Positions 26,660 to 41,465 of a stretch of DNA of 64,000 nt are shown piece by piece. The notes under the pieces are model-generated. The model worked only from the letters and a program-made list of their open reading frames with translations. It did no database searches and had not been told where the DNA came from. The translations under genes were made by a program, and so were the position numbers. Source of the DNA: Flavivirga sp. 57AJ16 (lineage in GTDB: Bacteria; Bacteroidota; Bacteroidia; Flavobacteriales; Flavobacteriaceae); the NCBI RefSeq assembly GCF_028736925.1, contig NZ_JAQZAT010000006.1, positions 124,001 to 188,000 on the forward strand. Reading direction: 5' to 3'. Each line of letters begins with the position of its first letter. Position 1 is the first letter of the stretch.

Positions 26660-26733
26660 GGTCCCATAGCTCAGTTGGTTAGAGCACCTGACTCATAATC
26701 AGGTGGTCCTTGGTTCGAGCCCAAGTGGGACCA
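26660..26733 (+). tRNA. tRNA with CAU anticodon (Met or Ile2)
   Basis: Cloverleaf of 74 nt, CCA not encoded. The acceptor stem GGTCCCA pairs with TGGGACC, the D-loop is AGCTCAGTTGGTTAGAGC, and the anticodon stem CCTGA/TCAGG encloses CTCATAA with anticodon CAT. The T-arm is CTTGG-TTCGAGC-CCAAG. A CAT anticodon can be elongator Met or lysidine-modified Ile; the sequence alone does not fully decide. It is not initiator tRNA, whose features (C1 mismatch, three GC anticodon-stem pairs) are absent. Confidence 0.95.
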
Positions 26734-26844
26734 CGCTTAAAAACTGTTTCATTAATTTGAAACAGTTTTTTTGTTTTAAAACGAAGTTATTTTGGGCGAG
26801 AAGTTTATGCAGAGCGTAGTCGAAGTAAGCCCAAGTGGAACCAC
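26719..26844. repeat. tRNA 3'-end direct repeat, att-like
   Basis: The last 16 nt of the tRNA region (26719-26734) recur at 26829-26844 with one mismatch (GCCCAAGTGG[G/A]ACCAC). Site-specific integrases use tRNA 3' ends as attachment sites, so this looks like a left junction left by an island or a small excised element. The 110 bp between the copies holds a terminator and a degenerate fragment GAGCGTAGTCGAA of the dispersed MITE motif. Confidence 0.65.
26739..26772 (+). terminator. Intrinsic terminator of the tRNA gene
   Basis: AAAACTGTTTC, 8-nt loop, GAAACAGTTTT followed by T-rich DNA. The stem is 11 bp and perfect, immediately downstream of the tRNA. Confidence 0.85.
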
Positions 26845-27466: not shown

Positions 27467-28576
27467 ATGAATAACGAAGTCTTTTATAATATCAGTAAAA
27501 TCATCGAAAGGGATAGCAAGTCTACTACTTACAAATATGCACTTTTACGTGGCGTTATAGATATTATTCAAGACAATTCACCTTACATTACATTTGTTGA
27601 AAATCGAATTCAAATACCAACAGGACTTCTTGTTGAAAAATGGTTATTGTATTACTATCCAATTTTACAATCTCAGACATCAATACCACAAATCAATGGT
27701 GAAATTAATCTTGCTTTCAGTAGTCAGTTTAGCAAATTAATACTTGATTATGAAGATCGTGGAGGTTTTTCTGCATTTTATAATGACCTAAAGAATAAAG
27801 GTATTCCGAAGGATTTGCAAAGTGAATTTCTTGAACTTACCAAGAAGCTTAGAGACACGATTACCAAAATGCCAATGAAGTATATTGGTCGTTCTATAAG
27901 CAATGACTTTTATTCTATTTTCAATTATGAAAGTCAAAGACTTAAGAGATATTCAAACATAGACATAGAAACATTAATTAAAGGTTATGGAACGTTTTCA
28001 ATTCCTTTAGAATACTACGAAGCCTTTAAGATTTTGGGCAGTTTTATAAACGGACAGGATTCTATTCTTTTCAAATGGGCTCAATTTTCTGTAAATGCAT
28101 CAGGGAATAATTTATCAGTTGACAAAGTTCTTAATGAAGTTTTAAAAAGTCCTATCACCGAGAGGAATATTGCTGAATCAAAAAAATTGTACAAAGACAT
28201 CCTTAAAAAGGAAGGTAAAGTATTTTGTGTCTGGACAGGTAGAAGTATTTCAAATTATGATATTGACCATTTGATACCATTTTCTGTATGGAAAAATAAT
28301 GACCTTTGGAATTTACTTCCTTCGGATTCAAGAATTAATAATCAAAAACGAGATAAAATCCCTACGCCGGAAATTATTGAAAGACAAAAAAATCTTATTC
28401 TTGATTATTGGGGAATTATCTTTGAAAGTCAATCAAAAAGATTTCAAAAAGAAATACAAGTCGCTCTTTTAGGAAACCATTCATTTAGTTCTTGGAAAAA
28501 TATTGGCATTTATCAACTGCAAAATAGTTGTAATTATTTAATTGAAAACAGAGGTTTTGAGGGATGGAAAATTTAA
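27467..28576 (+). CDS. HNH endonuclease domain protein
   Basis: A 369-residue cytoplasmic protein. The C-terminal HNH nuclease core reads CVWTGRSISNYDIDHLIPF (DIDH near 265-268), then NNDLWNLLPSDSRINNQKRD, matching the H-N-N/K finger of HNH enzymes. Only one Cys, in VFCVWTG, replaces the usual CxxC zinc pair, so a structural zinc is doubtful. The first 230 residues are helical and resemble no family I can name. HNH proteins with this DIDHxIPFS...NDLWNLLP core often sit in defence islands. Here there is no methylase or helicase partner, and the next genes form a toxin-antitoxin pair. Anti-phage or DNA-damage function is inference. Confidence 0.8.
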   Translation: MNNEVFYNISKIIERDSKSTTYKYALLRGVIDIIQDNSPYITFVENRIQIPTGLLVEKWLLYYYPILQSQTSIPQINGEINLAFSSQFSKLILDYEDRGGFSAFYNDLKNKGIPKDLQSEFLELTKKLRDTITKMPMKYIGRSISNDFYSIFNYESQRLKRYSNIDIETLIKGYGTFSIPLEYYEAFKILGSFINGQDSILFKWAQFSVNASGNNLSVDKVLNEVLKSPITERNIAESKKLYKDILKKEGKVFCVWTGRSISNYDIDHLIPFSVWKNNDLWNLLPSDSRINNQKRDKIPTPEIIERQKNLILDYWGIIFESQSKRFQKEIQVALLGNHSFSSWKNIGIYQLQNSCNYLIENRGFEGWKI

Positions 28577-28834
28577 AGTCAAATCCGAATAATTATTTAA
28601 CCGCTAAGGAAAGTACCTTTCTTTTCCCACCAAAATTATTTTCAATCTAAATTTATTAGTTGGTCAGTACTTCGTTTTATTATTGAACATTTTAAAGAAG
28701 AAAAGAAGCATTTTAAAAAATCGATTTATTTGTGGTCAAATTTAGGTTTTTATCAAGATCATTAAATATGACTTGTTAACTTGCAGTTTTTATCTAGAAG
28801 TAGTTTTATTAAAGTGATGTTCATTATATAGCAA
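28577..28834. other. Short region with a possible gene remnant
   Basis: One frame gives FISWSVLRFIIEHFKEEKK and continues to YLWSNLGFYQDH before TAA at about 28763. It has no convincing start codon and no family match I recognise. It may be the end of a lost gene between the HNH gene and the AbiE pair. Confidence 0.3.
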
Positions 28835-28937
28835 TGTTCAGTGTACATGAACAATGTGAATAAATGAACAAAATATCTATTTTGCTTTAATATTAAATGA
28901 ATGTTCAGTATATTTGAATGTTCATGTTACATGAACA
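28835..28937. promoter_or_regulatory. Three 19-bp operator-like palindromes before the AbiE genes
   Basis: Site A at 28835-28853 is TGTTCAGTGTACATGAACA, site B at 28902-28920 is TGTTCAGTATATTTGAATG, and site C at 28919-28937 is TGTTCATGTTACATGAACA. A and C are near-perfect or perfect inverted repeats; B is imperfect and touches C. Further half sites TGTTCA (28818-28823) and TGAACA (28865-28870) are present. Site C ends 10 bp before the antitoxin ATG. AbiEi antitoxins are known to repress their own operon by binding inverted repeats, so these are the likely operators. Confidence 0.8.
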
Positions 28938-28947
28938 TCGTTTAAAT

Positions 28948-29955
28948 ATGAACAAAATGACTGATTTTGCATATATACAGGAGTTTTTTGATACACTAGA
29001 CTTCCATGTTGAAGTTATCTATCAAAATTATAACCATGAAAAAAAAGAAAGTATCTATACTTTAAATAATGAAATGGTTTATATAGATACAAAAAATGAA
29101 GTAAGACCTCAAAATATAGCTGCTTTTGAAAAGAAAAGAAGCCAGAATTTACCGCTTTTGATCGCGTCAAAATACATTACTCCGAAGTCAAAAAATATAC
29201 TTAAAGAAAAAAAAATAAACTATATAGATAGTTTTGGTAATGCCTATATAAATTTAGAGCACTTAAAAATATATGTAGAGCAAGGAAATGCAAAACCTTA
29301 TTATAGTGATTATTCTAATCTTTTAACACAAACCTCAGGGCAAATTATATTTCAACTTCTTAAAAACCCAGAACAAATAAATGAAACCCAACGCTATTTA
29401 TCTCTTGCGAGTAAAGTTTCGTTGGGCAGTGTAAGTAAATGTATTACAGCTTTGATCGATGAAGGCTTTGTGGTAAAATGGAATAATGAACAAAAATATC
29501 AACTAGTAAGAAGAGATGAATTACTTGATAAATGGATTACAATATTGAATCAAAAAATATTGCCTGCAAATAAAATAGGAAAATACTCTTTTTCTAAACA
29601 AAACAATGCTAATTGGAAAGCTCAATTCTTAAATACAGAAGCACTTTGGGCAGGAGAACCTGCAGCAGCATTAATAACCAATTATCTAAATCCAGAAGCC
29701 TTTACATTGTTTACCGAAAAGAAAAAATCAGAGATTTTAACTGTGTTAAAACTTATTCCAGATAGTAAAGGAGACATAACTCTATATCAGCCATTTTGGA
29801 TAGATAGCTTTCCTATGGAAAGGGTTGCAAACATAAACCATAAAAACGTGGTACATCCTTTAATTATTTATGCACAGTTAATATATAGTAATAATACCAG
29901 AAATATTGAAGCAGCACAGTTAATATATAATGAGTACATCAAACCAAACTTATAA
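28948..29955 (+). CDS. AbiEi-family antitoxin / autorepressor
   Basis: A 335-residue protein from the start MNKMTDFAYIQEFFDTLDF; an earlier in-frame Met at 28918 lies inside operator site C and is rejected. The N-terminal 120 residues are mixed alpha/beta. A winged-helix region (about 130-195) contains LSLASKVSLGSVSKCITALIDEGFVVKW. The C-terminal domain follows. This matches the larger type IV AbiEi antitoxins. The gene overlaps the downstream AbiEii toxin gene by 26 bp, the normal antitoxin-first order. It is expected to repress its promoter through the palindromes just upstream and to counter the toxin. Confidence 0.85.
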   Translation: MNKMTDFAYIQEFFDTLDFHVEVIYQNYNHEKKESIYTLNNEMVYIDTKNEVRPQNIAAFEKKRSQNLPLLIASKYITPKSKNILKEKKINYIDSFGNAYINLEHLKIYVEQGNAKPYYSDYSNLLTQTSGQIIFQLLKNPEQINETQRYLSLASKVSLGSVSKCITALIDEGFVVKWNNEQKYQLVRRDELLDKWITILNQKILPANKIGKYSFSKQNNANWKAQFLNTEALWAGEPAAALITNYLNPEAFTLFTEKKKSEILTVLKLIPDSKGDITLYQPFWIDSFPMERVANINHKNVVHPLIIYAQLIYSNNTRNIEAAQLIYNEYIKPNL

Positions 29956-30778
29956 GCAGTATTCATTTGCACATCACGCAAAAGTCTACGCTATTTTAGA
30001 GACTGTTTTTTCTAAACACGGGATCGTTTATTATTTAATTGGTGCTAATGCCAGAGATGTACAATTATATAAACAAGGTATAAAACCAACTAGAGGTACG
30101 GCAGATATAGATTTCGCAATAATGGTACCGGATTTTAATGTGTATCAAGCTATATTTGACACCTTATGCAGCAACGGTTTTAGAAAGACAAAAGAAGCTT
30201 ATAGATTGGTTTTTGACGAAACAAATACCGTTTTAGACTTGATGCCTTATGGCGAAATAGAACAGGAGTATACTGTGAATTTCACTGACAGGGAATTATC
30301 ATTATCCGTATTAGGTTTTAAAGAAGTGGGACAGCACATAGAAAGTGTAAAAATTTCAGAAGAAAATTATACACTACCGGTATCACCAGTAGAAGGCTTA
30401 ATAATATTAAAATTAATTTCTTGGGAAGATAAACCTGATCTAAGAATAAAGGATTTAGAAGATATTTCCTTTTTATTAGAACACGCATGGCATTTGTATG
30501 AGGATGAAGCCTTTACTAACCATTTGGATTTGTTTGATGATGAATATTTTAGTATGCAAATCGCAGCTGCAAGAATAATTGGCAGAAAGATGGCTTCTAT
30601 TGTAAATCAAAATGAAAAATTAAAACGAACTATTATAAATATTTTGGTAACTAGTATTACTAAAAAGCAGAAGGCCCAAAATCCAGAAATTATATTAGCA
30701 CAAAAAATGAATAAAACTATTGAGGATATTCAAGTCATATTAAGTGCGATTTTAAAAGGAATTAATGATGAACAATAA
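29930..30778 (+). CDS. AbiEii-family nucleotidyltransferase toxin
   Basis: A 282-residue minimal nucleotidyltransferase of the AbiEii (DUF1814-like) toxin group. Motif I is IGANARD (38-43) followed by TRGTADIDFAI, giving the DxD pair Asp59/Asp61; later motifs are LDLMPYGEI and LIILKLISWEDKPDLRIKDLEDI. All catalytic residues appear intact. Known AbiEii/MenT relatives transfer nucleotides to tRNA or other targets and stop growth, giving abortive infection. Overlap with the antitoxin gene implies tight co-translation. Confidence 0.87.
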   Translation: MSTSNQTYKQYSFAHHAKVYAILETVFSKHGIVYYLIGANARDVQLYKQGIKPTRGTADIDFAIMVPDFNVYQAIFDTLCSNGFRKTKEAYRLVFDETNTVLDLMPYGEIEQEYTVNFTDRELSLSVLGFKEVGQHIESVKISEENYTLPVSPVEGLIILKLISWEDKPDLRIKDLEDISFLLEHAWHLYEDEAFTNHLDLFDDEYFSMQIAAARIIGRKMASIVNQNEKLKRTIINILVTSITKKQKAQNPEIILAQKMNKTIEDIQVILSAILKGINDEQ

Positions 30779-30920
30779 ATTTTAGTCATAATTTCAATGA
30801 GATTTATTTAAATTTATTTAAAGGATTTAAACAGCCCCACTTCCAGCACATATCTTCTCCTTCGTTCCACAAGTTGCACTCACAAAAATAAGAGCTTACA
30901 GTTCCGCGCAATATTAGTTA

Positions 30921-30962
30921 TGGCATTTTAGAACACGTTATTTTTGAAAATCTAAAATGCCA
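30921..30962. repeat. 12-bp stem inverted repeat after the AbiE pair
   Basis: TGGCATTTTAGA at 30921-30932 pairs exactly with TCTAAAATGCCA at 30951-30962. It lies in a gene-free stretch between the toxin gene and the next fragment. It could be a terminator without a T-run or part of a cassette-like spacer. Confidence 0.6.
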
Positions 30963-30991
30963 AAACCAATATTTTTAGCCACCGCTAAGTT

Positions 30992-31345
30992 TTGGTTTCA
31001 ATTGTAATTTTTAATCCGACTGTTCCAGGGTATAATAAATGCGCGGAAGGAGAATATTTCTATCAGTACGATTTTAGTGATGACGGAAAAACTTATGGAA
31101 ATCCAGTATTGGAATTTAATGAACGGAATCAAAACGGAATTATCTCAATTCTCGAAAAAGGACTGAAAGGAAAAGAAGTTCAGTTTGTAAAAAATGGGAA
31201 AATCTTAAAATCCAAACTTTACATTGCGGAATTTGACTCGAATTTTAGCTACTCTTATGATTTTACAAAGAGAAATTTTTGGAACAAAATATTCGGACAA
31301 AAAATGGACGGAATAAAAAACGTGTTACAACAAAGCCGTGTATAA
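30992..31345 (+). pseudogene. Truncated hypothetical gene (3' part)
   Basis: The frame ending at 31345 encodes about 110 residues starting near FNPTVPGYNKCAEGEYFYQYDF. No ATG start with a leader is available; the frame begins with a TTG or in mid-domain, and the sequence before it is repeat-like. It looks like the C-terminal part of a longer protein cut off by the accessory-region rearrangement. Family not recognised. The downstream spacer begins immediately after the stop. Confidence 0.5.
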
Positions 31346-31470
31346 TTCATTGCTTTGTCTCTGCTAACTTGGAAAATAAGAATGATTTTCCTCTGGTTCG
31401 TTTTCTTTTGCTAACTTAGTCCTTGCCATTGTAATAAACCATACAGGAACACGTTGGCTGTAATTTAAAA
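31326..31470. repeat. Cassette-like spacer a
   Basis: It contains ACAACAAAGCCGTGTATAATT, the hairpin GGAAAATAAGAATGATTTTCC (31371-31391) and CTCTGGTTCG, and ends with CACGTTGGCTGTAATTT. The same order of elements recurs in spacers b, c and g. Confidence 0.65.
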
Positions 31471-31479
31471 CCTATCAAT

Positions 31480-31812
31480 ATGAAAAAAATAACATTAGCT
31501 CTTTTAATAAGCATTTTATTAATTTCCTGTAGTTCTAATAACTATAATGAGGAATTTATTGGAACTTGGAAAAAAGAAAACTCATCTAATAAACTTCATT
31601 TCTCTGAAGCTGAAAATAATCAATTAAGACTAAAATTTGAGAAATTTAGTGGTAATAGCGAAAATATGATTATGGAATTTGAGGACGAATTTACTGTTAA
31701 AAGTACTATGGGAGAAACACACGCTTCTTATTATACTTATAAGCTAAAAACAGAGGATGGAAAAACCTACATAGTCCATTATACAACTAACGATAAATAT
31801 TTCAAAATGTAA
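31480..31812 (+). CDS. Small lipoprotein of unknown function
   Basis: A 110-residue protein with a signal peptide and lipobox (ILLISCSS, Cys17). The mature part has a beta-rich pattern (EFIGTWKKENSSNKLHFSE), like the lipocalin-type small lipoproteins in Bacteroidetes that start with an F(I/V)GTW strand. Probably exported to the outer membrane. Function unknown. It sits right after spacer a and shares a unit with the next gene. Confidence 0.7.
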   Translation: MKKITLALLISILLISCSSNNYNEEFIGTWKKENSSNKLHFSEAENNQLRLKFEKFSGNSENMIMEFEDEFTVKSTMGETHASYYTYKLKTEDGKTYIVHYTTNDKYFKM

Positions 31813-31880
31813 TGACAATAGATTAAAAAGCTAATTGATTATAATCCCAATCAAAGCTATAAACCCAAATATTGTTAAAT

Positions 31881-32501
31881 ATGAAAGCATTAATCATAAT
31901 TTCAGGAATTATAACATTTCTTATTGGAGCATTATGGAAATTTCGCTTAAAAAAGTATGCCTTTGATAATAGAACAAGTGGTGGGGGTTCAGAATTCAAA
32001 AATTACAGCCATTATAATTTACATTTGTTAGGAAGAGCATTAAGTTCTTTAATGCTTATTGGAGGTATTATTATATGTTTTTATGGTTATGGTTACAATC
32101 CATATGAAAAGTTCTATCCATCCAATTGGAATTCTATGTCCGAACAAGAACAAAGAACATGGAAATATTTTCATGACAGCCCAGAAAAACTTACAAAATG
32201 GAAAGAGGAAAATATGATAAACCCATACGAGCTATTAAAAAACAAAGAGTTTTCGGATTGGACAAAGCAAATGGAGATAGAAACTAATATTTCACATTTG
32301 GTATGGAGAGATTTGGCAGACAATACTGCTAAAAACATAAGTTTTCCAGAACAGGAGAAATTAATGAAAAAATGGCATTTCAATAGAGATATGGTAAAAG
32401 CTGTGAAAAGCGAATATGAATTTGACCCGAATGATCCTCTTGATGTATGGAGAGCTGAACAAAAGAAAAGAGAGGAAGAAAGGAAAAAGTCTGAAAAGTA
32501 A
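31881..32501 (+). CDS. Two-helix membrane protein of unknown function
   Basis: A 206-residue protein from ATG (MKALIIISGIITFLIGALWKF); a TTG 9 bp upstream is not preferred. Two hydrophobic helices (about 2-20 and 50-70) precede a charged, helical soluble tail of 130 residues, rich in Lys, Glu and Trp and ending in a poly-charged stretch (EQKKREEERKKSEK). Family not recognised. It shares a cassette-like unit with the lipoprotein gene 68 bp upstream. Confidence 0.7.
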   Translation: MKALIIISGIITFLIGALWKFRLKKYAFDNRTSGGGSEFKNYSHYNLHLLGRALSSLMLIGGIIICFYGYGYNPYEKFYPSNWNSMSEQEQRTWKYFHDSPEKLTKWKEENMINPYELLKNKEFSDWTKQMEIETNISHLVWRDLADNTAKNISFPEQEKLMKKWHFNRDMVKAVKSEYEFDPNDPLDVWRAEQKKREEERKKSEK

Positions 32502-32505
32502 AAAC

Positions 32506-32655
32506 GACAAACTATGGCTATAAGTAATTGCTTGTTACCGTCTACTTCTGAAAATCCGAGAGGATTTTCAGTTTAGTGTTGTACTTGCAAAGCTAAGTAC
32601 TAAACCACGCAACTACCCATAACCGGGACAGTTGGGCGTAATGTGAATTCGACGA
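32506..32655. repeat. Cassette-like spacer b
   Basis: Contains CTGAAAATCC-GAGA-GGATTTTCAG (32548-32571, perfect 10-bp stem), AAGCTAAGTAC, ACCACGCAACTACCC, and ends with GTTGGGC at 32631-32637. That last box is complementary to GCCCAAC at the other end of the bestrophin unit. Confidence 0.7.
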
Positions 32656-32684
32656 AGTACTAGACATTTTAAAAATATTAAATT

Positions 32685-33746
32685 ATGTACACAAAAAAGG
32701 TTTTCAAAATCAAGGATATGGTAAAATGGACTCGTTTTGAGACCTTATTATTCATAACCATAATTACCATATTTGTAAGTGTTTATTATTTTTTTGATTT
32801 ACAGTGGCTTAAGATTCCTTGGACCCCATTAGCCTTGATTGGTACAGCTGTAGCTTTTGTTATAGGTTTTCAAAACAATTCGGCTTATGGCAGAATTTGG
32901 GAAGCTCGAAAAATTTGGGGCGGAATTGTTAACTCATCTCGAACTTTTGGAATGTTCGTACAAGACATGGTAACAAACGAACATATTATAGAAAAGCAAA
33001 CAGATTCGGAACTACAAAAGCAAATTAAAACACTCACTTACAGGCATATTGCTTGGATGACAGCTCTACGTCATGCCATGAGAGAATCAAAACCATGGGA
33101 AACTGTAGTTCATGAAAAAACAAATAAAGAATGGAGTAAAATAGTAAAACCTCCAGAATGGGAATCGACTATTGAAGAAGATTTAAAACCATACATTTCT
33201 TCACCCGAAATGGGCTATGTATTATCTAAACACAATAAACAAACAGCCTTATTGTATTTGCAATCTAAACACCTACGCCAATTAAAAGAAAATGGATTAA
33301 TTTGGGAGTTTTCTTTTTTACAATTAGAAAGCATTTTGCAAGAACTTTTTACATTACAAGGACAATCAGAAAGAATTAAAAATTTTCCATACCCACGCCA
33401 ATTTGCGACCTTAAATCATTATTTTATGTGGGTTTTTGTGATGCTTCTACCGCTAGCAATTGTTCCTCAATTTGCTGAAATTGGTAAAGATATTGTTGAT
33501 TTACAGCCAATATTTGGAAAACTGTTTATTTGGTTGTCTATCCCATTTTATGTGATTGTTGCTTGGGTTTTTCATACTATGGAAAGAATTGGACGAACTG
33601 GAGAAAACCCTTTTGAAGGGTCTGCTAACGATGTTCCAATTTCAACGATTGCTCGAGGAATAGAAATTGATTTACGTCAAAATCTAGGAGAACACAAAGA
33701 CGAAATTCCGAATCAATTTCCAGTCAATTATGACACACAAATGTAA
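32685..33746 (+). CDS. Bestrophin-family ion channel
   Basis: A 353-residue membrane protein of the bacterial bestrophin (YneE) family, homologous to animal anion channels. It has four hydrophobic regions: about 20-36 and 45-62 (PWTPLALIGTAVAFVIGFQNNSAYGRIWEARKIWGG, the signature), then 245-262 and 278-295 near the C-terminus. The sequence between FIGFQNNSAYGRxWEAR and PLAIVPQF is typical. The length is normal and the frame intact. Bounded by complementary 7-bp boxes in spacers b and c, so it looks like a one-gene cassette. Confidence 0.92.
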   Translation: MYTKKVFKIKDMVKWTRFETLLFITIITIFVSVYYFFDLQWLKIPWTPLALIGTAVAFVIGFQNNSAYGRIWEARKIWGGIVNSSRTFGMFVQDMVTNEHIIEKQTDSELQKQIKTLTYRHIAWMTALRHAMRESKPWETVVHEKTNKEWSKIVKPPEWESTIEEDLKPYISSPEMGYVLSKHNKQTALLYLQSKHLRQLKENGLIWEFSFLQLESILQELFTLQGQSERIKNFPYPRQFATLNHYFMWVFVMLLPLAIVPQFAEIGKDIVDLQPIFGKLFIWLSIPFYVIVAWVFHTMERIGRTGENPFEGSANDVPISTIARGIEIDLRQNLGEHKDEIPNQFPVNYDTQM

Positions 33747-33759
33747 TCGAATGAAAACA

Positions 33760-34045
33760 CTATGCCCAACAACGGTAACCGTTGCGCAACTCATAATTTT
33801 AAATAAAGCAATAAATTTTGACAACAACTAAAAAAAATAACTCATTTAAAATCAATGCATTGTTGTTTTGAAAGCAAAAATAATTAAGTAGGAATTAGAG
33901 TGTTTTATAGTTGTGCAACAGCCACAACGTGTAAAAATAATTGTTTGGTTCTCGCCTACTTGGAAAATCCTACGGATTTTCCTCTGGTTCGCTCCATTTT
34001 TAGTAAGTTAGTTGCTTAAGTACGCAACTATCCTTACATTAAATT
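33760..34045. repeat. Cassette-like spacer c
   Basis: Starts with GCCCAAC (33764-33770) and AACGGTAACCGTT, and may hold two merged spacers. The second part has ACAACGTGTAAAAATAATTG and a GGAAAATCC/GGATTTTCC hairpin (33962-33982), then CTCTGGTTCG. No gene of its own. Confidence 0.65.
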
Positions 34046-34063
34046 TAACTAAAGTATTTTAAT

Positions 34064-35170
34064 ATGAAACAAAAAAAACTTTTCGTATTTATCCTGTCAA
34101 TTTTTATGTCCATAAATATTACTGCACAAAATGCCCCTATTAGAATTGCTGTAATTGGACTTACCCATACGCATGTTCATTGGGTCTTTGGTAGTGAAAA
34201 AAATGGTGATATTGAGATAGTAGGTATAGTTGAAACAAATAAAGATTTGGCTGAACGATATGCCAAACAACATGGATATTCTATGAAAATGGTATTCAAT
34301 ACCATGGAAGAAATGATTGAAGCTACTCATCCAGAAGCGGTTTGCGCATTTGGTACTATCTATGAACATTTAGAGGTTGTTGAAAAAGCAGCTCCTTTAG
34401 GTATTCATGTAATGGTTGAAAAGCCTTTAGCAGTTAGCTTAGAGCACGCAAAAAAAATGGAAGCCCTATCTAAAAAACATAATATCCATTTACTTACTAA
34501 TTACGAAACTACATGGTATCCTTCCAATTATGAAGCCTACAAATTGGTTGAGAAGGATTCTATCGGGGCTATTAAAAAAGTGGTAATAAGAGACGGACAC
34601 AAAGGGCCAAAAAAAATAGGCATTAACAAAGAATTTTTGGACTGGTTGACTGATCCTGTTCAAAATGGCGGAGGTGCAATTACAGATTTTGGCTGCTATG
34701 GTATCAACTTAATGACCTGGTTAATGAAAGGTGAAAAACCACTTACGGTTACGGCTGTAACTCAACAACTACAATCAAAAAATAATCCAAAGGTAGATGA
34801 CGATGCAACTATAATTTTAAAGTATACAAACTCCAATGCAATTATACAAGCCTCCTGGGATTGGCCAATTGGAAGAAAAGATATGGAAATTTATGGTCTA
34901 AAAGGAGTGATTTATGCTGATAATCGATACGACCTGCGTATCCGTATTTCTGAAGGCTATGATGGTTATATTGAACAATCCTTTAAATTGGAGGAAAGGA
35001 AAGCCCCATTCAATGATCCATTTTCTTTATTTGCATCAGTCATTAAAAATGAAACAAGCCTTGAGCCCTTTGATTTATCCTCATTAGAAAACAATATGGT
35101 TGTGATGGAAATTTTGGATGCCGCCATCAAGAGTGCTAAGACTAAAAAAACAATTGAAATTAAAAAGTAA
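34064..35170 (+). CDS. Gfo/Idh/MocA-family oxidoreductase, exported
   Basis: A 368-residue NAD(P)-dependent dehydrogenase-like protein with an N-terminal signal peptide (MKQKKLFVFILSIFMSINITAQN, cut near residue 22), so periplasmic. The Rossmann motif is unusual (IRIAVIGLTHTHVHWVFG), with THTHVH where GxGxxG is common. The dehydrogenase core follows with MVEKPLAV (the conserved EKP) and GGGAITDFGCYGINLMTWLM, which includes the catalytic-type Asp/His region. Exported members often act on sugars or glycan-derived substrates. Transcribed alone between spacers c and d. Confidence 0.88.
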   Translation: MKQKKLFVFILSIFMSINITAQNAPIRIAVIGLTHTHVHWVFGSEKNGDIEIVGIVETNKDLAERYAKQHGYSMKMVFNTMEEMIEATHPEAVCAFGTIYEHLEVVEKAAPLGIHVMVEKPLAVSLEHAKKMEALSKKHNIHLLTNYETTWYPSNYEAYKLVEKDSIGAIKKVVIRDGHKGPKKIGINKEFLDWLTDPVQNGGGAITDFGCYGINLMTWLMKGEKPLTVTAVTQQLQSKNNPKVDDDATIILKYTNSNAIIQASWDWPIGRKDMEIYGLKGVIYADNRYDLRIRISEGYDGYIEQSFKLEERKAPFNDPFSLFASVIKNETSLEPFDLSSLENNMVVMEILDAAIKSAKTKKTIEIKK

Positions 35171-35325
35171 CTACTGTCAACAATGTATAAAAAAAATGCT
35201 GGCTTTATCCTAAACCAATGTTAGTTGCTCGTTTACTATCTTTTGATTTTCCTCTCGGAAAGTCCTCGCGGATTTTCACGCAACGAAACCATAGCCAAAC
35301 ACGTTAGCGGCAACCTGAAAAACAA
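35171..35325. repeat. Cassette-like spacer d
   Basis: Begins with CAACAATGTATAA, has a degenerate GATTTTCC...GGATTTTC hairpin (about 35245-35277), CCATAGCC, and ends with GTTAGCGGC (35303-35311). This last box is exactly complementary to GCCGCTAAC at 36205-36213. Confidence 0.7.
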
Positions 35326-35341
35326 CACTCTCGAAATAAAA

Positions 35342-35698
35342 CTATTTACCGATTATCTTCTTCCTATGTAGTAATCCCCAAAAGTGTAACTCGTCCAAGA
35401 CTTTCTCCAAAGACATTCCGTGTTCCGTGATTGAGTATTGAACTTTAGGGGGAAAACTATCGAACACTTCTCTTTTAACTAACTGATTTGTTTCCAAAAG
35501 TTTCAACTCTTTAGATAAAGTTTTATCTGTAATACCAACAACTTCCCTACTAATTTCTTTAAACCGTTTTGGGCCGCCAGACAATGAAAATAAAATCAAT
35601 AATTTCCATTTTCCCTCAAGGACCTCAAGAGCATCTTTGATAGAAAGCATTGTTTTGGGACAACCACCTTTTGACAACATAACTTCAAGTTTGGACAC
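35342..35698 (-). CDS. HxlR-family winged-helix regulator
   Basis: A 118-residue DNA-binding protein. The HxlR core is CPKTMLSIKDALEVLEGKWKLLILFSL (the conserved Cys near residue 13), then RFKEISREVVGITDKTLSKELKLLE (recognition helix) and VQYSITEHG (wing). The start may be GTG at 35698 or ATG at 35680 (MLSKGGCP), since the GTG abuts the palindromic operator. Divergent from the DoxX gene, from which it is separated by the palindrome, so it probably controls that gene. HxlR/DoxX pairs respond to electrophilic or redox stress in related bacteria. Confidence 0.9.
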   Translation of the reverse strand: MSKLEVMLSKGGCPKTMLSIKDALEVLEGKWKLLILFSLSGGPKRFKEISREVVGITDKTLSKELKLLETNQLVKREVFDSFPPKVQYSITEHGMSLEKVLDELHFWGLLHRKKIIGK

Positions 35699-35740
35699 AT
35701 TACTTTCCTAATGGATAGTGCTATCCAATAGGAAAGTAAT
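35699..35740. promoter_or_regulatory. 42-bp near-perfect palindrome, HxlR operator
   Basis: Left arm 35699-35718 and right arm 35721-35740 are inverted copies with one mismatch over 20 bp, around a TG centre; the core is TGGATAG-TG-CTATCCA. It lies between divergent HxlR and DoxX genes. Symmetry and position indicate binding by the HxlR dimer and joint control of both genes. Confidence 0.85.
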
Positions 35741-35799
35741 ATAAATTAGATAGTAAATATAGATAATTTCGTGTTGTATAATTTAAAAACATAAATACA

Positions 35800-36198
35800 A
35801 TGACAAAGCAAAAAAAATCCAAAGTGTTTAATATTATCTTATGGATATTTCAAGCCCTTTTAGCTGTAACATTTATTTGGGGAGGTGGAATGAAATTATT
35901 TCAACCTAATGACCTACCTTGGTTATGGGTAAATGAAAATCCCGAATTAGTGACTGTTTCAGGTGTTTTTGACTTATTGGCAGGTTTCGGATTGACCTTA
36001 CCTTCTCTTCTTCGAATTCAACCAAAAATGACAATATATGCAGCCTATGGAACAATTGCTCTAATGATTTCAGCAAGTATTTTTCACATTATAAGAGGAG
36101 AAGGAAACCAAATAGGATTTAATATATTCATTTTAATTTCTGCTATATTTATTGCTTGGGGAAGACTGAAAAAAGCACCAATAGAACCGAAAAAATAA
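35800..36198 (+). CDS. DoxX family membrane protein
   Basis: A 132-residue protein with four helices (about 10-30, 45-65, 75-95, 103-122). The DoxX-like block is ALLAVTFIWGGGMKLF. The short intact frame is of normal length. DoxX proteins are linked to redox and thiol metabolism, but the exact role here is unknown. Divergent from the HxlR gene with the palindrome between, so expression is probably derepressed by the same signal. Confidence 0.88.
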   Translation: MTKQKKSKVFNIILWIFQALLAVTFIWGGGMKLFQPNDLPWLWVNENPELVTVSGVFDLLAGFGLTLPSLLRIQPKMTIYAAYGTIALMISASIFHIIRGEGNQIGFNIFILISAIFIAWGRLKKAPIEPKK

Positions 36199-36199
36199 A

Positions 36200-36415
36200 A
36201 GGCAGCCGCTAACAAAGATGTGTATATGTAATGCGGGGTGAAATGTTAAACGGAAACCTCTGTGCTTCTATTCAGCTCGCAGTTAGTATATTTATGAACA
36301 AAAATTAAAAAATATAAAAGCAGCTCGCTAACGTTCGTGTCGATTTTAAACTATCGCTTTCAAATCCCGCACTACACATACACATATATGAAACCGTTGG
36401 TAACAATTTGAATAC
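36200..36415. repeat. Cassette-like spacer e
   Basis: Begins with GCCGCTAAC (36205-36213). It has arms GATGTGTATATGTAATGCGG (about 36217-36236) and CCCGCACTACACATACACAT (about 36366-36385), inverted copies with 18 of 21 matched. It ends with GTTGGTA (36396-36402), nearly complementary to TATCAAC at 38487-38493. Confidence 0.7.
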
Positions 36416-36425
36416 AACCCAAAAA

Positions 36426-37730
36426 TCATTGTTTCAAACCAATAGTCTCGGGTTTACCTTTTAAGCCCAACCCCTTAACATTACCCTTTTCATCTAGAAA
36501 AAATTCCCATTCCAAAGCTTGTTCAGCAAAATAAAAAGTAGTGTTAGAAGATGGTACTAATTCTTCTTTTCCATCTATTGGGTCTGGCCGAAGATATAGT
36601 TTGTTTCCCTCTTCAGTAATGTGTAATAACCCAAAACCTTTTGAAAGGTAAGTGCCCACATAGTTTTTATAAAGGGAAGTATCAATATTGTAAACGGTAC
36701 GCTTTTCAGGAATTTTAAATGGTTTTCCCTCCCATATATTTCTTACCGCTCCGTAAACACCTTTCCAATTAGAGCCCGAAACATTATGTAGATAAATAAA
36801 CGTTTTTTTAGTATTCATATAGCGTTGTAAGCTTGACCTCTTGCTTTCTCCATCACCTACTATATATGCTTCGTTGACATTATCTGTTTTATGGAGCCGC
36901 CAAGCAAAACCGTAATCACTTAAAGAACCATCATTTAAAGGTGTCATCTCAAAAGACCTTTTCAAGACTTCTTGCGACAGTAATTGATTTGTATATAATG
37001 CTTGGTCAAATAAATATAAATCGTAGGCCGTAGAATGAATATGGCCTTCTCCTAAAGGCGGTCCGACATTGACAGACAATGGCATACCATTAATTGCCTG
37101 TTCTTTATTGTAAACAAAACTATTAACCATACCAAGTGGCTCAAAAATATTGTGTTTTATAAACACTACAAAAGGTGCTCGTGAAACCTGTTCGACTATT
37201 GCTGCGAGCAGCATATAATTGTCGCCATTGTAACCAAATTTATCACCTTTTATAGTGTTTTCAGGTTTGTATTTGGCTACTAATTTTATTATTTCATTTG
37301 AAGTGTAAACTTTTGTACTGTCTTGGTAAGTAGCAACGGTAGGCTGAAACCTGGGCAAACCACTTGTCATATTTAAAAGGCTTTCTATAGTAACATGCTG
37401 ATAAGGAAGTTTAGGAAAATAATCGGTCAATTTGTTATCAAGTTTTATATGCCCTCTATCCACAAGCATTAATATAGCTACTGCTGTAAAAGCCTTACTT
37501 ACCGAAGCAATATCTAAAGAGGTTTCTTTTGTGATTTGATTATCGTTTTCATCTTTTCCATAAGCATTATAAAAACGAAGTTTACCTTTTTCAGCGATTA
37601 ATAGCTGACCGTCAAATAACTGATTTTCGGATACTATTGTAAGTACTGAATCAATTTGGGCTGTCCATTCTTGCCCATAAGAATTTATGAAAGCAATAAA
37701 AAAAATAGAAATAAAGAATATGTGTCGCAT
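36426..37730 (-). CDS. Serine hydrolase of the beta-lactamase/class C fold
   Basis: A 434-residue exported enzyme (signal peptide MRHIFFISIFFIAFINSYGQ). The nucleophile motif SVSK is in LDIASVSKAFTAVAIL. The second motif is FGYNGDNYMLLAAIVEQ, where YSN-type is usual, so the Asn is displaced. The third, GEGHIHSTAYDLYLFDQALY, stands near the H/KxG site. A C-terminal lipocalin-like domain follows. Families of this kind are esterases or peptidases acting on envelope substrates, not necessarily beta-lactamases. It lies 82 bp from a membrane-bound LuxR regulator on the same strand. Confidence 0.85.
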   Translation of the reverse strand: MRHIFFISIFFIAFINSYGQEWTAQIDSVLTIVSENQLFDGQLLIAEKGKLRFYNAYGKDENDNQITKETSLDIASVSKAFTAVAILMLVDRGHIKLDNKLTDYFPKLPYQHVTIESLLNMTSGLPRFQPTVATYQDSTKVYTSNEIIKLVAKYKPENTIKGDKFGYNGDNYMLLAAIVEQVSRAPFVVFIKHNIFEPLGMVNSFVYNKEQAINGMPLSVNVGPPLGEGHIHSTAYDLYLFDQALYTNQLLSQEVLKRSFEMTPLNDGSLSDYGFAWRLHKTDNVNEAYIVGDGESKRSSLQRYMNTKKTFIYLHNVSGSNWKGVYGAVRNIWEGKPFKIPEKRTVYNIDTSLYKNYVGTYLSKGFGLLHITEEGNKLYLRPDPIDGKEELVPSSNTTFYFAEQALEWEFFLDEKGNVKGLGLKGKPETIGLKQ

Positions 37731-37811
37731 AATAAATAGTATTAATCATCCAAAGATGAAAAACCCAATTAGTAATAAAAAATACAGAATATAGATTTTG
37801 AATAGACAAAT

Positions 37812-38390
37812 TCAAATTTGTCTCAAAACATCGAGCAAATTAGTCTCTGGAGATAACAACATCTTCTTTCTTAATCGATAACGAGCAGTATTTACACTTG
37901 ATGGGGCTATATTTAATTCCAACGAAATATCTTTACTACTTAAACCGTCAATGAGCATTTCAGCAATCAAAACATCATTTTCAGTTAATTGTGAATATTT
38001 TAAATGCAAACGTTCTTGAAAACTAAGACCTTTTTTAAGTTTTATTGATAGCTTTTCCCTTAAATTATATCTATAATTTAAAACTGTTTTGATGCTACGC
38101 CTACGGTTTGAGACCCTCATCCATAGCATAATGGATAATACTAACGAAGCAAATACGATAAAGAACCAACCTCTTTCTTGCATAAACAATACTTGCATTC
38201 TGTTTTTTTCTAACATATAAGCATCCGACGGCCTACTGCTCTTTATTAGTGCTAATACTTCAGGCTCAATAGCAGTATTTGTAAATTTTGCATACCCAAA
38301 TGACAACAATAAAACGACACCTAACACAAAAAGAAAGTGATAAAACGAGGGTCGTATTAATAGTTTTCTTATACTACATTTGAATTTCAA
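37812..38390 (-). CDS. Membrane-anchored LuxR-type regulator
   Basis: A 192-residue protein. Two hydrophobic segments (about 16-34 and 75-92) enclose a short non-cytoplasmic region, and a C-terminal HTH follows (SQLTENDVLIAEMLIDGLSS, KDISLELNIAPSSVNTARYRLRKKM). This is a transmembrane one-component regulator that probably senses an envelope signal. It is co-directional with the serine hydrolase gene 82 bp downstream, which may be its target. Confidence 0.85.
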   Translation of the reverse strand: MKFKCSIRKLLIRPSFYHFLFVLGVVLLLSFGYAKFTNTAIEPEVLALIKSSRPSDAYMLEKNRMQVLFMQERGWFFIVFASLVLSIMLWMRVSNRRRSIKTVLNYRYNLREKLSIKLKKGLSFQERLHLKYSQLTENDVLIAEMLIDGLSSKDISLELNIAPSSVNTARYRLRKKMLLSPETNLLDVLRQI

Positions 38391-38469
38391 AATCTTAATA
38401 GGCTTTATGATGCTGCAATTTAATAGAGTATTTTAATCTTTTCAATAGACAATATATAGATTTCAACAT

Positions 38470-38695
38470 TTTTGTTAAAAAATTGCTATCAACAATGTAC
38501 ATAAAAAATAGGGTAATTTTGGCTTAATCGGATAGGTTTTGATTGTTTTCAATGCCACCAAATTTTTAATTTTGTATTTTTATAACAGAAAAGGTAAAAA
38601 AGAAAACTAAAAATGTGGCGCTTTGCACAACCGAATGCAAACAGTTTACTTTCTGCCCAGCTTTTCATATACAGGACCTTTAGCAACAAGTAAAA
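38470..38695. repeat. Cassette-like spacer f
   Basis: Begins with TATCAACAATGTACATAAA, related to CAACAATGTATAA in spacer d, and ends with TTAGCAAC (38680-38687). That is complementary to GTTGCTAA (39205-39212) after the SRPBCC gene. No gene in it. Confidence 0.6.
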
Positions 38696-38701
38696 ACGAA
38701 T

Positions 38702-39196
38702 ATGGAGAATTTTGATTGGACATCATACACTAAGAAAATTGCCATTAAATCTACTTTAACAGAGATATATAATGCTTGGACTAAAGCATCTGAATTAGAA
38801 AAATGGTTTTTGAAAAAAGTTGATTTCAACAGACCAGACCATTCGTCATACAATAAAAACGAAAATGTTGTTGAAAACGTATTATATACTTGGTATTGGT
38901 ATTTGTATAGTGAACCGATGAAAGGTAAAATAACAAAAGTCAATGGTAAAGATTATATCCAATTTACCTTTGAAGGAGAATGTTTAGTGGATGTTCTGCT
39001 TGAAACAGATAATGACTATATTATCGTAACCCTAAAACATCATAACATTCCATTAGATAATAAATCCAAACAATATGTTCGGCTTGGTTGCACAAACGGC
39101 TGGACTTTTTATCTTACTAATTTAAAATCCATATATGAAGGTGGAATTGATTTAAGGAATAAGAATGAAAAATTTTCACCAATGATTAATAACTAG
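38702..39196 (+). CDS. SRPBCC (AHSA1-like) domain protein
   Basis: A 164-residue cytoplasmic protein with a START/AHSA1-type fold: ITIKSTLTEIYNAWTKASELEKWF-like region (here KIAIKSTLTEIYNAWTKASE), then an extended beta-sheet region (YIQFTFEGECLVDVLLETDND). AHSA1-like proteins bind small hydrophobic ligands or act with Hsp90; here the role is unknown. The reading frame is intact. The gene forms a single-gene unit between spacers f and g with 8-bp complementary ends. Confidence 0.82.
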   Translation: MENFDWTSYTKKIAIKSTLTEIYNAWTKASELEKWFLKKVDFNRPDHSSYNKNENVVENVLYTWYWYLYSEPMKGKITKVNGKDYIQFTFEGECLVDVLLETDNDYIIVTLKHHNIPLDNKSKQYVRLGCTNGWTFYLTNLKSIYEGGIDLRNKNEKFSPMINN

Positions 39197-39199
39197 AAA

Positions 39200-39485
39200 A
39201 ACCAGTTGCTAATACTGCATATAAGCTATGGCTTGGTCCAATGTCATTAAGTTAAGGCAGTAATGTCAGTCTGAGCGCAGTCGAAGACCAATTGGAGTTC
39301 TAGTTTTATTAGCATTTCGACTGCGCTCAATGTGACAAAAAGGGGCAAATTTCCTTAACTTAATGACATTGGGCTTGGTCTGTCCACACTTGGAAAATCC
39401 TGTGGATTTTCCAAAGCCAGTTTTTATCTTGATAGGTTCGTACCAAGACGCGTCATAGCCATATACCAAACGTTGTGTACATAAA
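39200..39485. repeat. Cassette-like spacer g (interrupted)
   Basis: Starts with GTTGCTAA (39205-39212), ATATAAGCTATGG and, after the MITE, CTTGGAAAATCC...GGATTTTCC (39390-39413), then CATAGCC and CGTTGTGTACATAAA (39472). With the MITE and one target copy removed, the rest reads like spacer c. It ends ahead of the AraC gene. Confidence 0.7.
39239..39371. mobile_element. 133-bp MITE with 9-bp target-site duplication
   Basis: Termini CAATGTCATTAAGTTAAGG (39239-39257) and the exact inverse (39353-39371) form a 19-bp perfect terminal inverted repeat. The nine bases GGCTTGGTC flank it on both sides (39230-39238 and 39372-39380), a target duplication. Inside, a second pair carries TGAGCGCAGTCGAA and TTCGACTGCGCTCA. 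It has no coding capacity, so it is non-autonomous; the mobilising transposase is not in the window. Confidence 0.9.
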
Positions 39486-39544
39486 ACCATTCCTATTATT
39501 TTTCAAAATCTGAATTATATGTTTGAATTTCATAAATTTGTGAA

Positions 39545-40453
39545 ATGAAAAAAACATTGGAAATAGAAGATTTTTATGTCGAAAATCTAAAGTGGGTTCC
39601 TGAAAATCTAAAATCATCGATTGGACATTTTAACGTATTTAGGTTAGAAGAATTTTCGGGTCTTGATCCCAAACCTATGCCCTATAGTCGAAAGGATTAC
39701 TATAAAATAAGTCTGATTGTAGGTAAAAGCAAAGTACATTATGCAGACAAGACAATTGAAATAAATAACCAGGGCCTATTGTTTGCAAATCCACAAATAC
39801 CTTACAATTGGGAACAGGTAGATAGCCAGTTATCAGGTTATTTTTGCGTTTTTACAGAAGCCTTCTTTAATCAGTATGGAGATTTGAATAAATATCCTGT
39901 TTTTCAGCCAAGTGGAAATCAAATTTTCAATTTAACTACAGAAAACAGCGCTAAATTCGCTGCGATATTTGAGCAAATGTTTACTGAAATTAATTCAGAT
40001 TATACGTTTAAGTATGACATTCTCAGAAACCTTGTTTTTGAGCTTATTCATTCAGGAATAAAATTAGATCCAGTAACTTATAGGGTTGACTATCAATCCA
40101 ATGCCTCAGAACGAATATCTTCTATGTTTATAGAGCTTCTTGAAAGACAATTTCCAATAGAAAACACAAGCCAGAAGATTAAATTAAGAACAGCTAAGGA
40201 CTATGCAAATCAATTGAACGTTCACGTAAATCATTTAAACAGGGCATTAAAAGAAGTCACTGGAAAATCCACTAGTTCTTTAATTACAAGACGACTTACT
40301 AAGGAAGCCAAAATACTTTTAGCACATACCCATTGGAATGTTTCAGAAATCGCGTACGCTCTAGGTTTTGAGGAGACTTCTCATTTTTCCAATTTTTTCA
40401 AGAAACATATCCAGCAATCACCAATTCAATTCAGAAAAAACAAAATTGTTTGA
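39545..40453 (+). CDS. AraC-family transcriptional regulator
   Basis: A 302-residue protein with an N-terminal cupin-like sensing domain (about 25-160) and a C-terminal double helix-turn-helix (about 200-302). Its AraC signature is VSEIAYALGFEETSHFSNFFKKHIQQSP. Cytoplasmic. The SDR gene is 88 bp downstream on the same strand, a frequent AraC-oxidoreductase arrangement, so it probably activates it. Ligand unknown. Confidence 0.92.
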   Translation: MKKTLEIEDFYVENLKWVPENLKSSIGHFNVFRLEEFSGLDPKPMPYSRKDYYKISLIVGKSKVHYADKTIEINNQGLLFANPQIPYNWEQVDSQLSGYFCVFTEAFFNQYGDLNKYPVFQPSGNQIFNLTTENSAKFAAIFEQMFTEINSDYTFKYDILRNLVFELIHSGIKLDPVTYRVDYQSNASERISSMFIELLERQFPIENTSQKIKLRTAKDYANQLNVHVNHLNRALKEVTGKSTSSLITRRLTKEAKILLAHTHWNVSEIAYALGFEETSHFSNFFKKHIQQSPIQFRKNKIV

Positions 40454-40541
40454 TTTTTACAACTACTTGGTTGAATTGGGTAATTCCTCCCAATGAATTC
40501 TAATGATCTTTGTATGGTTCAATAATTAAAAAATAATACAA

Positions 40542-41303
40542 ATGAATCAGAGTAAAATAGCACTAGTAACTGGAGGTAGTAGGGGTTTGGGGAAAGATAT
40601 GGCGTTAAACCTAGCGAAAAAAGGATTGGATCTCATCATCACCTATCATTCTAACGAAGCTGCCGCAAAAGAAGTAGTCTCAGAAGTAGCAGAAATAGGA
40701 CAAAAAGCTATGGCTTTACAGCTAGATGTGGCCGAGTACAGTGAATATGAACCATTTTTCAAGAAGTTATCTGATGTTCTTCAGGAAAGTTATAATACAT
40801 CAACTATTGATTATTTAATCAATAATGCTGGAAGTATTGCACCAGCTCCCTATATTTCAGCAACAATAGATGAATTCAAAGATATGATTCATATCCACCT
40901 TATGGGGCCATTTTTCATTGCGCAAAATGCCCTTCAAATAATGAATGATGGTGGTGGCATTGTCAATATCTCAACTGGATTGACACGTTTCACAACTCCT
41001 GGCTTTGCTACCTACGCATCTATGAAAGGTGGTTTAGAAATTTTAACTAAATACCAAGCAAAAGAATTGGGAGAAAGAAAGATAAGAGTAAATAGTGTTG
41101 CGCCTGGAGCAATAGAAACAGATATAATGGGAGGTGCTGTAAGGGATAATGCTGAACTCAATAAGGCATTAGCAGAAGACACAGCTTTGGGACGTGTTGG
41201 TGTACCTAGTGATGTTGGTTCTGTGGTTGCATTCCTCTGTACAGAAGATGCAAAATGGATTAACGGACAGAGAATTGAAGTATCAGGAGGAGCGAACTTA
41301 TAG
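40542..41303 (+). CDS. SDR-family oxidoreductase
   Basis: A 253-residue NAD(P)-dependent classical short-chain dehydrogenase. The cofactor motif is TGGSRGLGKDMA (TGxxxGxG), NNAG is present, the active-site Ser is in VNISTG, and the catalytic pair is YASMK. The 253-residue length is standard. Substrate unknown. It follows the AraC gene and ends before a strong terminator, so it is the last gene of this unit. Confidence 0.93.
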   Translation: MNQSKIALVTGGSRGLGKDMALNLAKKGLDLIITYHSNEAAAKEVVSEVAEIGQKAMALQLDVAEYSEYEPFFKKLSDVLQESYNTSTIDYLINNAGSIAPAPYISATIDEFKDMIHIHLMGPFFIAQNALQIMNDGGGIVNISTGLTRFTTPGFATYASMKGGLEILTKYQAKELGERKIRVNSVAPGAIETDIMGGAVRDNAELNKALAEDTALGRVGVPSDVGSVVAFLCTEDAKWINGQRIEVSGGANL

Positions 41304-41317
41304 TACTTAAAAAAATA

Positions 41318-41465
41318 CTACCACTAACAAAGTATAAAATCAATAGCAGTTTGGTTGTGAACCAAACTGCTATTTTGTTTATTTGAGTATATTGCTATCC
41401 CAAAAGCAAGTGAGTTTTAATCTGCTAATGCTCTTATGCTAAACGTATATAAGTAATTACTCAAA
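41318..41465. repeat. Cassette-like spacer h
   Basis: Starts with CACTAACAAAGTATAAAATC (41322-41341), related to the other spacer starts, and holds the terminator of the SDR gene. It ends with a less regular AT-rich part. Complementarity with the left end of the unit (GTTGTGT at 39472) is only partial. Confidence 0.5.
41350..41388 (+). terminator. Intrinsic terminator of the SDR gene
   Basis: AGCAGTTTGGTT-GTG-AACCAAACTGCT followed by ATTTTGTTT: a perfect 12-bp stem with a 3-nt loop, about 50 bp after the stop codon. Confidence 0.9.

Follow-up and report, generated by a model that had tools for sequence, protein, structure and literature searches.

We describe a cassette array from Flavivirga sp. 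57AJ16 (Bacteroidota, Flavobacteriaceae), found in a stretch of 64,000 nucleotides (contig NZ_JAQZAT010000006.1, forward-strand positions 124,001 to 188,000), which is called the window below and is numbered from its first letter. Very probably, Bacteroidota possess an integron-type system, and the region at ∼31.3-41.5 kb of the window is a degenerate array of its cassettes. Integrons carry genes as cassettes, i.e., one or more genes together with their own attC site, bounded by AAC/GTT cores; the attI site lies beside the integrase gene, and satellite arrays without an integrase also occur. Compared across genomes, the sequences show a family of attC-like sites with a predicted base-paired stem, complementary boxes at the two ends of cassettes, copies that end at GTT, and a usual order of integrase, putative attI, and array. 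A preliminary description, made from the letters of the window, had proposed an integron-cassette-like array without an integrase, and its cassette reading is now supported by the recurrence of the spacers, the variable unit content, and the matching of cognate boxes in intact arrays.

The spacers belong to a structured family of attC-type sites

One spacer of the window (36196-36420) has matches of 72-74% identity, over about 150-190 bp, in two other genera of the family. Each match falls within an extended array of small genes, most of them co-oriented, and a related site separates many of the neighbours. A plain-DNA search of the Flavivirga genome with one spacer found only the spacer itself; because the site sequences are too variable for BLAST, a covariance model was needed. 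This model, R1, was built from 45 aligned sites of seven loci in five other genomes, with the window sites excluded. R1 matches occur in at least 175 of 199 genomes of the family and at least 92 of 296 genomes of the phylum (16 and 11 candidates scored per genome, respectively), bearing out the suggestion that the spacers would recur elsewhere. The Flavivirga genome itself has at least 47 sites at E≤0.05, in several clusters, with 150 of 5750 candidates scored.

From the 45 sites, RNAalifold predicts a 12-pair outer stem unaided, with double changes in nine pairs. In a 17-pair version of this stem, 96.7% of 756 cells are paired, versus 24-38% when slid, and double changes occur in 11 pairs. 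Only four cells are one-sided (G-U type), and the stem therefore fits DNA pairing, not RNA pairing. Two A.C mismatches within the stem are conserved, one in 43/45 sites (the other two have C-G) and one in 45/45, and they become G.T on the bottom strand, which gives the more stable fold in 38/45 sites. This bias is at most suggestive of single-strand recombination of the attC bottom strand. In classical attC sites, the recombining strand is marked by extrahelical bases. With an imperfect hairpin, AAC/GTT cores, and paired arms, the family has the makeup of attC sites.

The window carries a degenerate, CALIN-like array

An R1 search of the whole window found seven sites (E 1.7e-14 to 0.0026), all on the + strand, and no further match at E<0.01 anywhere else in the 64 kb. 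Several spacers have CAACAA-GTATAA-like starts and GGAAAATCC-type hairpins in common; the preliminary description had called them related, and R1, which had been trained without them, shows them to be a real site family. An Rfam search of 26-44 kb returned no relevant family. The contig that holds the array (C49) has no Phage_integrase match, and with its seven R1 sites the array is a cluster of at least two attC sites with no integrase alongside (cluster of attC sites lacking an integron integrase, CALIN). We read it as a CALIN-like, decayed satellite array, a degenerate outlier without a local integrase. Its features are as follows.

31325..31459, + strand: attC-type site 1 (R1 59.9 bits, E 3.8e-11)
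31453..32512, + strand: unit with a 110-aa gene (31480-31812, lipoprotein-like by its N-terminus) and a 209-aa gene (31872-32501); boxes not complementary, 6/10
32506..32637, + strand: attC-type site 2 (R1 74.4 bits, E 1.7e-14)
32631..33770, + strand: bestrophin cassette (Bestrophin_2, 1.7e-44); boxes 9/10
33764..33787, + strand: possible collapsed attC remnant of 24 nt, CAACGGTAACCGTTG, read from the sequence (R1 12.6 bits, not significant)
33782..33919, + strand: possible mini-cassette without an open reading frame (ORF), ∼140 bp, GTTGCGCAACT ... GTTGTGCAAC; a speculative reading of the letters
33922..34050, + strand: attC-type site 3, right core lost (R1 64.5 bits, E 3.2e-12)
34051..35181, + strand: GFO/IDH/MocA oxidoreductase unit (gene 34064-35170, Pfam), left box degenerate; boxes 5/10
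35175..35309, + strand: attC-type site 4 (R1 41.5 bits, E 7.1e-7)
35303..36213, + strand: cassette with HxlR (- strand) and DoxX (+ strand); boxes 9/10
36207..36402, + strand: attC-type site 5, long form (R1 26.1 bits, E 0.0026)
36396..38493, + strand: cassette with a serine hydrolase (- strand) and a LuxR-type regulator (- strand) (Pfam); boxes 8/10
38487..38685, + strand: attC-type site 6, long form, right core mutated (R1 29.9 bits, E 3.6e-4)
38679..39213, + strand: AHSA1/SRPBCC cassette (Pfam 9.3e-9), cores mutated; boxes read from the sequence
39199..39478, + strand: attC-type site 7, split by an inverted-repeat element; the right part alone scores (R1 14.7 bits, not significant; repeats I2, I5)
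39472..41328, + strand: unit with an AraC-type regulator and a short-chain dehydrogenase (Pfam); boxes not complementary
41322..41452, + strand: attC-type site 8 (R1 41.3 bits, E 7.9e-7)

Four box pairs had been reported in the preliminary description, and all four are where it had placed them. The bestrophin cassette pairs GTTGGGC (32631-32637) with GCCCAAC (33764-33770), and its left box GTTGGGCGTAATGT stands against a right box that reads GTTGGGCATAGTGT. The HxlR-DoxX cassette pairs GTTAGCGGC (35303-35311) with GCCGCTAAC (36205-36213), and the serine hydrolase cassette pairs GTTGGTA (36396-36402) with TATCAAC (38487-38493), with one mismatch. In the SRPBCC pair, TTAGCAAC (38680-38687) and GTTGCTAA (39205-39212), both cores are mutated, TTT replacing GTT and AAT replacing AAC.

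The element inside attC-type site 7 is 135 bp long (39238-39372), with outer arms that are perfect over 20 bp. It has the look of a miniature inverted-repeat transposable element (MITE) or a repetitive extragenic palindrome (REP), and it has a 14-nt motif in common with locus L025 at 18731.

Cognate boxes match in intact arrays

In the integron reading, the left box of a unit should match its own attC. We compared R1-placed boxes at 14 loci, setting aside partial and non-significant R1 matches and named loci with few sites. Neighbouring (cognate) pairs match at ≥8/10 letters in 87/97 cases, versus 146/1118 for non-cognate combinations. The window contributes 2/6 cognate and 2/43 non-cognate matches, and the 13 other loci contribute 85/91 and 144/1075. 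A single array in genome G146, with 77 sites in 59.7 kb (L239-L241, G146:C1:184000-243700), repeats the pattern, with matches in 71/76 cognate pairs versus 698/5776 non-cognate ones. The complementarity extends over ∼10 nt, often with 3 more beyond a mismatch. At box position 11, the 14-locus test had pointed to an invariant mismatch (1% match), which the G146 data ruled out; there, A-A occurs in 35/76 units and A-G in 34/76, so that these mismatches are common, not universal.

The likely integrase is of the XerA type

No gene in the 12 genomes examined scores above the cut-off of the IntI profile TIGR02249. The best IntI-like matches in 8 of these 12 genomes form one family without the IntI insert, with ORFs of 355-406 aa in seven genomes and 284 aa in G012. 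Its best TIGR02249 matches skip profile positions about 180-239, so the IntI domain is missing, and KGxKDR and HxLRH are 64-66 residues apart in all family loci that allow the measurement (29/30), versus 107 in 6/6 canonical IntI. The Flavivirga member, on contig C14, passes the NCBIfam XerA cut-off NF040815 (241.4 vs 220 bits), a family whose public name is "site-specific tyrosine recombinase/integron integrase." Its best solved matches by sequence are 4a8e (XerC-like), 2a3v (IntI4), and 5hxy (XerA), and the alignment to 2a3v comes in two pieces, with 45 chain residues omitted between them. The proposed genome search for IntI-like or other tyrosine recombinases has thus yielded a family member that is not an IntI by the usual criterion. 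Likewise, "without an integrase" is true of the array locally but not of the genome, where C14 holds a matching integrase, a putative attI, and one attC-like site.

A tree of 80 rows, made by a quick method and with one row of branch length 10, separates IntI (six close rows from other classes) and Xer (seven rows) from the cassette integrases, each on a branch with a support of 100. It leaves the group nearest to the cassette integrases undecided, and two groups are mixed (one Spirochaetota row, three Bacillota rows). Separately, the N-terminal ∼100 residues show conserved W/WY positions (alignments A2, A3) and are absent from the G012 member; no confident Pfam match to this region was found in seven members scanned.

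The integrase is found in 125/175 attC-positive genomes versus 2/24 attC-negative ones. As the likely catalyst we propose this tyrosine recombinase, which is of the XerA type and lacks the insert specific to IntI.

Integrase, putative attI, and array follow a common layout

An R1 site lies no more than 1.5 kb away in 21 of the best 30 integrase loci, always beyond the 3' end of the gene and co-oriented with it; in these, a tyrosine recombinase stands beside an array. One of the 21 has an additional weak R1 match on the other strand, and five of the nine loci without a site end at a contig end less than 1 kb from the integrase. No R1 sites were found beside eight other tyrosine recombinases of the Flavivirga genome (0/8, taken from 13 other matches), and two of four recombinase fragments from relatives do have sites, L034 (a truncated family member) and L035 (a 148-aa fragment). 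Of 589 named loci, 17 of the best 80 carry R1 sites, and all 17 are titled Bacteroidota (Winogradskyella, Seonamhaeicola, Algibacter, Zunongwangia, Algoriphagus, Rufibacter, Alkalitalea, and others). Their sites are downstream and co-oriented in 49/51 cases, the two exceptions being in L153. In five stretches of two genomes, 102/102 sites lie on the integrase strand.

We searched for a candidate attI in 25 of the 30 best integrase loci and five named loci. In 19/30, the stop codon is directly followed by a perfect palindrome, its arms 9-12 bp long, that lies 5-6 nt before a GTTR; arms of ≥8 arose in 1/600 shuffles. The palindrome sequence differs between genomes, and several of the other 11 loci have imperfect palindromes, seen by eye only. 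The box after the putative attI agrees with the right box of the site that comes next downstream in 24/25 loci (16/17 where placed by the palindrome and 8/8 where placed by eye), with 10/10 letters in the Flavivirga genome. The order is therefore integrase, putative attI, and cassettes; the integrase gene faces the array, and the palindromic region, which adjoins the integrase and is joined to the first cassette, has the position predicted for an attI.

Units behave as cassettes

In G025, one unit is present in four copies of 437-441 nt with 95.9-99.8% identity. The copies have the gene and its downstream site in common and part right after the next GTT, and their upstream sequence is different in every pair. 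As far as sequence comparison can tell, this is cassette behaviour. A copy of the window's HxlR-DoxX unit, 85% identical, is present in G176, a genome of another genus, and homology stops at both boxes. Both cases fit a mobile unit of gene plus own attC with a crossover at G|TT. R1 recognizes no site in the G176 copy. DoxX of the window type is rare (4/198 other family genomes at E≤1e-12), and a plasmid BLAST with the HxlR-DoxX unit returned one unrelated match and, apart from that, just a partial match within HxlR. No relatives of the bestrophin were found in viral contigs. The G176 copy (L235, G176:C1, 940-2200) adjoins a tRNA-Leu, and a tRNA-like fragment is repeated on its far side.

We sampled cargo from 22 chosen array proteins of relatives, 20 by Pfam and seven by PADLOC (two of these seven new). 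It includes a Shedu-like SduA, an HerA-like ATPase, a PLD-family protein, a Gp49-like toxin-family protein, cation efflux and Fur-like proteins, and others, and 9 of the 20 proteins scanned have no Pfam match. In the G146 array, 34/76 cassettes are one related family of about 290-350 bp, and 10/76 have no ORF of 50 aa. This multi-copy family is perhaps largely non-coding; does it represent a promoter, a small RNA, or a selfish cassette?

Proposed mechanism

Acting on folded attC-type sites, the cassette integrase would join them to one another and to the putative palindromic attI, and the crossover would fall at G|TT within the GTTR core. A unit, made up of one or a few genes and the attC downstream, would thereby be inserted beside attI, excised, duplicated, and reshuffled. 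Single strands would be the substrate, with the strand chosen via the conserved A.C mismatches, which are G.T on the other strand. The window array may have been left out of reach of attI and then decayed. Its units would hold accessory genes, kept in store or co-opted, that lie in both orientations and may each have a promoter of their own.

Several observations weigh against this interpretation. Taken alone, the four window pairs are not significant: in 400 trials per unit with dinucleotide-shuffled window spacers and free choice of box position, shuffles equalled the real complementarity 46/400 times for HxlR-DoxX, 126/400 for bestrophin, 145/400 for the serine hydrolase unit, and 399/400 for SRPBCC, and for the last two units the free search chose boxes other than those first described. 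The idea that end complementarity exceeds controls holds in intact arrays, far above non-cognate pairs, and not for the window by itself, which does no better than shuffled spacers; it becomes significant once arrays from relatives, with R1-placed boxes, are added. Three of seven window units have no matching boxes. The C14 integron has one cassette, whose attC lacks the right core near the contig end. In G012 and L153, sites lie on the opposite side of the integrase, and two of the eight first-picked integrases (G022, G013) have no significant site in the 20 kb examined, G013 being at a contig end. At the threshold used, 50/175 attC-positive genomes lack the integrase, and because the site-less genomes are mostly small, genome size and assembly confound the co-occurrence in part. 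Relatives of the integrase also occur on plasmids of other phyla, many from Proteobacteria, without known cassettes (one is named TnpF, and some bear the public name of NF040815), so proteins of this family are found outside integrons as well. In principle, the G025 copies could have arisen by homologous recombination between shared sequences, which is disfavoured because the copy ends fall at GTT.

The genomic locus and alternative explanations

The left flank of the array (lolE, rbfA, an epimerase, and tRNA-Met) is conserved in 11 same-genus genomes. After tRNA-Met (window 26660-26734), the cargo differs among most of them (loci L223-L233), with one cargo common to G002 and G006, which makes this a hypervariable hotspot. 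Anchoring synteny through CutC was dropped, as CutC is located elsewhere in relatives, and the lolE-rbfA-tRNA-Met flank worked. A tblastn search with the array proteins (ORFs ≥100 aa) found none at the locus in the 11 genomes, one of which shows only 2.5 kb; unit content is thus variable. In G001, the right flank begins just 3 kb after the left flank, and the window block is therefore an insertion relative to G001. To the left of the array (27467-30778) are an HNH endonuclease and an AbiEi/AbiEii-like pair, AbiEii being below its Pfam cut-off.

This setting makes it possible, if somewhat unlikely, that a genomic island at tRNA-Met makes up the window block, its attC-like sites being relics with no role in gene arrival. 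The variable content after tRNA-Met, where R1 finds a single 64-nt match in up to 20 kb of the 11 loci (17 kb away, in G008), would fit an island, as would the AbiE-like and HNH genes that precede the array and the degenerate state of its sites. However, the HxlR-DoxX homology with another genus ends at the boxes, and four units retain complementary boxes. The island and cassette readings are compatible, and the array may have been carried into, or built at, a hypervariable locus.

It is improbable that the sites owe their mobility to a canonical IntI, whether it acts in trans or acted in the past, with the XerA-type gene beside the arrays as a passenger. Other classes of the phylum often have a canonical IntI (84/296 phylum genomes have a gene over the cut-off, some of them also with R1 matches), but just one of those 84 belongs to the class of the window, and none of the 12 genomes examined above has one. 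Six canonical IntI loci, with up to 1.5 kb on each side, contain no R1 match. The XerA-type gene usually adjoins the array and keeps one orientation, and the putative attI immediately follows its stop codon. Less probable still is that the spacers are ordinary self-spreading hairpins (terminators or REP/MITE-like) between fixed genes, for although they contain GGAAAATCC-type hairpins and one hosts the inverted-repeat element, left and right boxes of the same unit match far above other combinations, the duplicated G025 unit is a gene plus its downstream site, and the sites hold one strand relative to the integrase except in G012 and L153.

Relation to known systems

In the open-access papers that were searched, we found no description of the present system; preprints and most subscription papers lie outside this search. 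IntegronFinder 2.0 reports for Bacteroidetes only In0 earlier and one complete integron, in Salinibacter ruber (PMC9024848), IntI searches require the IntI-specific domain (PMC9668308, PMC2426708), an attC survey with 11 taxon models makes no mention of Bacteroidetes (PMC8352920), and a review lists Bacteroidota among integron-bearing phyla (PMC8618304). Surveys that require the IntI domain or omit Bacteroidota models could therefore let such a system escape, and the missing domain may be a reason why it was overlooked. Full novelty is argued against by the listing of Bacteroidota integrons, the canonical IntI in other classes, and the name of NF040815.

If our interpretation is true, a large gene-capture system has been overlooked in a very common phylum, and its cassettes, some with Shedu-like, HerA-like, or toxin-like genes, can be found with a simple model. 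It is somewhat more likely than not that Bacteroidota have a separate integron lineage, with a XerA-type recombinase that acts on cassette hairpins without the IntI domain, a sequence-variable palindromic attI after its own stop codon, and a recombining strand marked by A.C/G.T mismatches in place of extrahelical bases. In that case, cassette arrays, one here with 77 sites, would be normal in flavobacterial genomes. The IntI domain would be one of at least two solutions for integron integrases, and the question of what makes an integron integrase out of a Xer recombinase could be tested on a natural second case.

The present system resembles integrons and CALINs in its units of gene(s) plus own attC, the left box complementary to the unit's own right box, the AAC/GTT cores, the attI beside the integrase, the large co-oriented arrays with many unknown genes, and the integrase-less satellites. 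In contrast to integrons, its integrase has no IntI-specific insert, scores below the IntI cut-off, and is usually encoded pointing toward the array; its attI is a variable palindrome, its box complementarity spans ∼10 nt, and its stems have conserved A.C mismatches. The reverse-oriented integrons of Spirochaetota likewise have the integrase reversed relative to the classical layout, but those integrases are reported as IntIs (PMC9668308), whereas the present integrases lack the IntI-specific region. The present integrase resembles XerA, XerC, and XerD in its best solved matches (4a8e, 5hxy, and, from IntI4, 2a3v), and the Flavivirga member passes the NF040815 cut-off for XerA. Unlike them, the cassette integrases have an NPLD/SPLD-like C-terminus, cassette arrays alongside, and, in most members, an extra ∼100 N-terminal residues.

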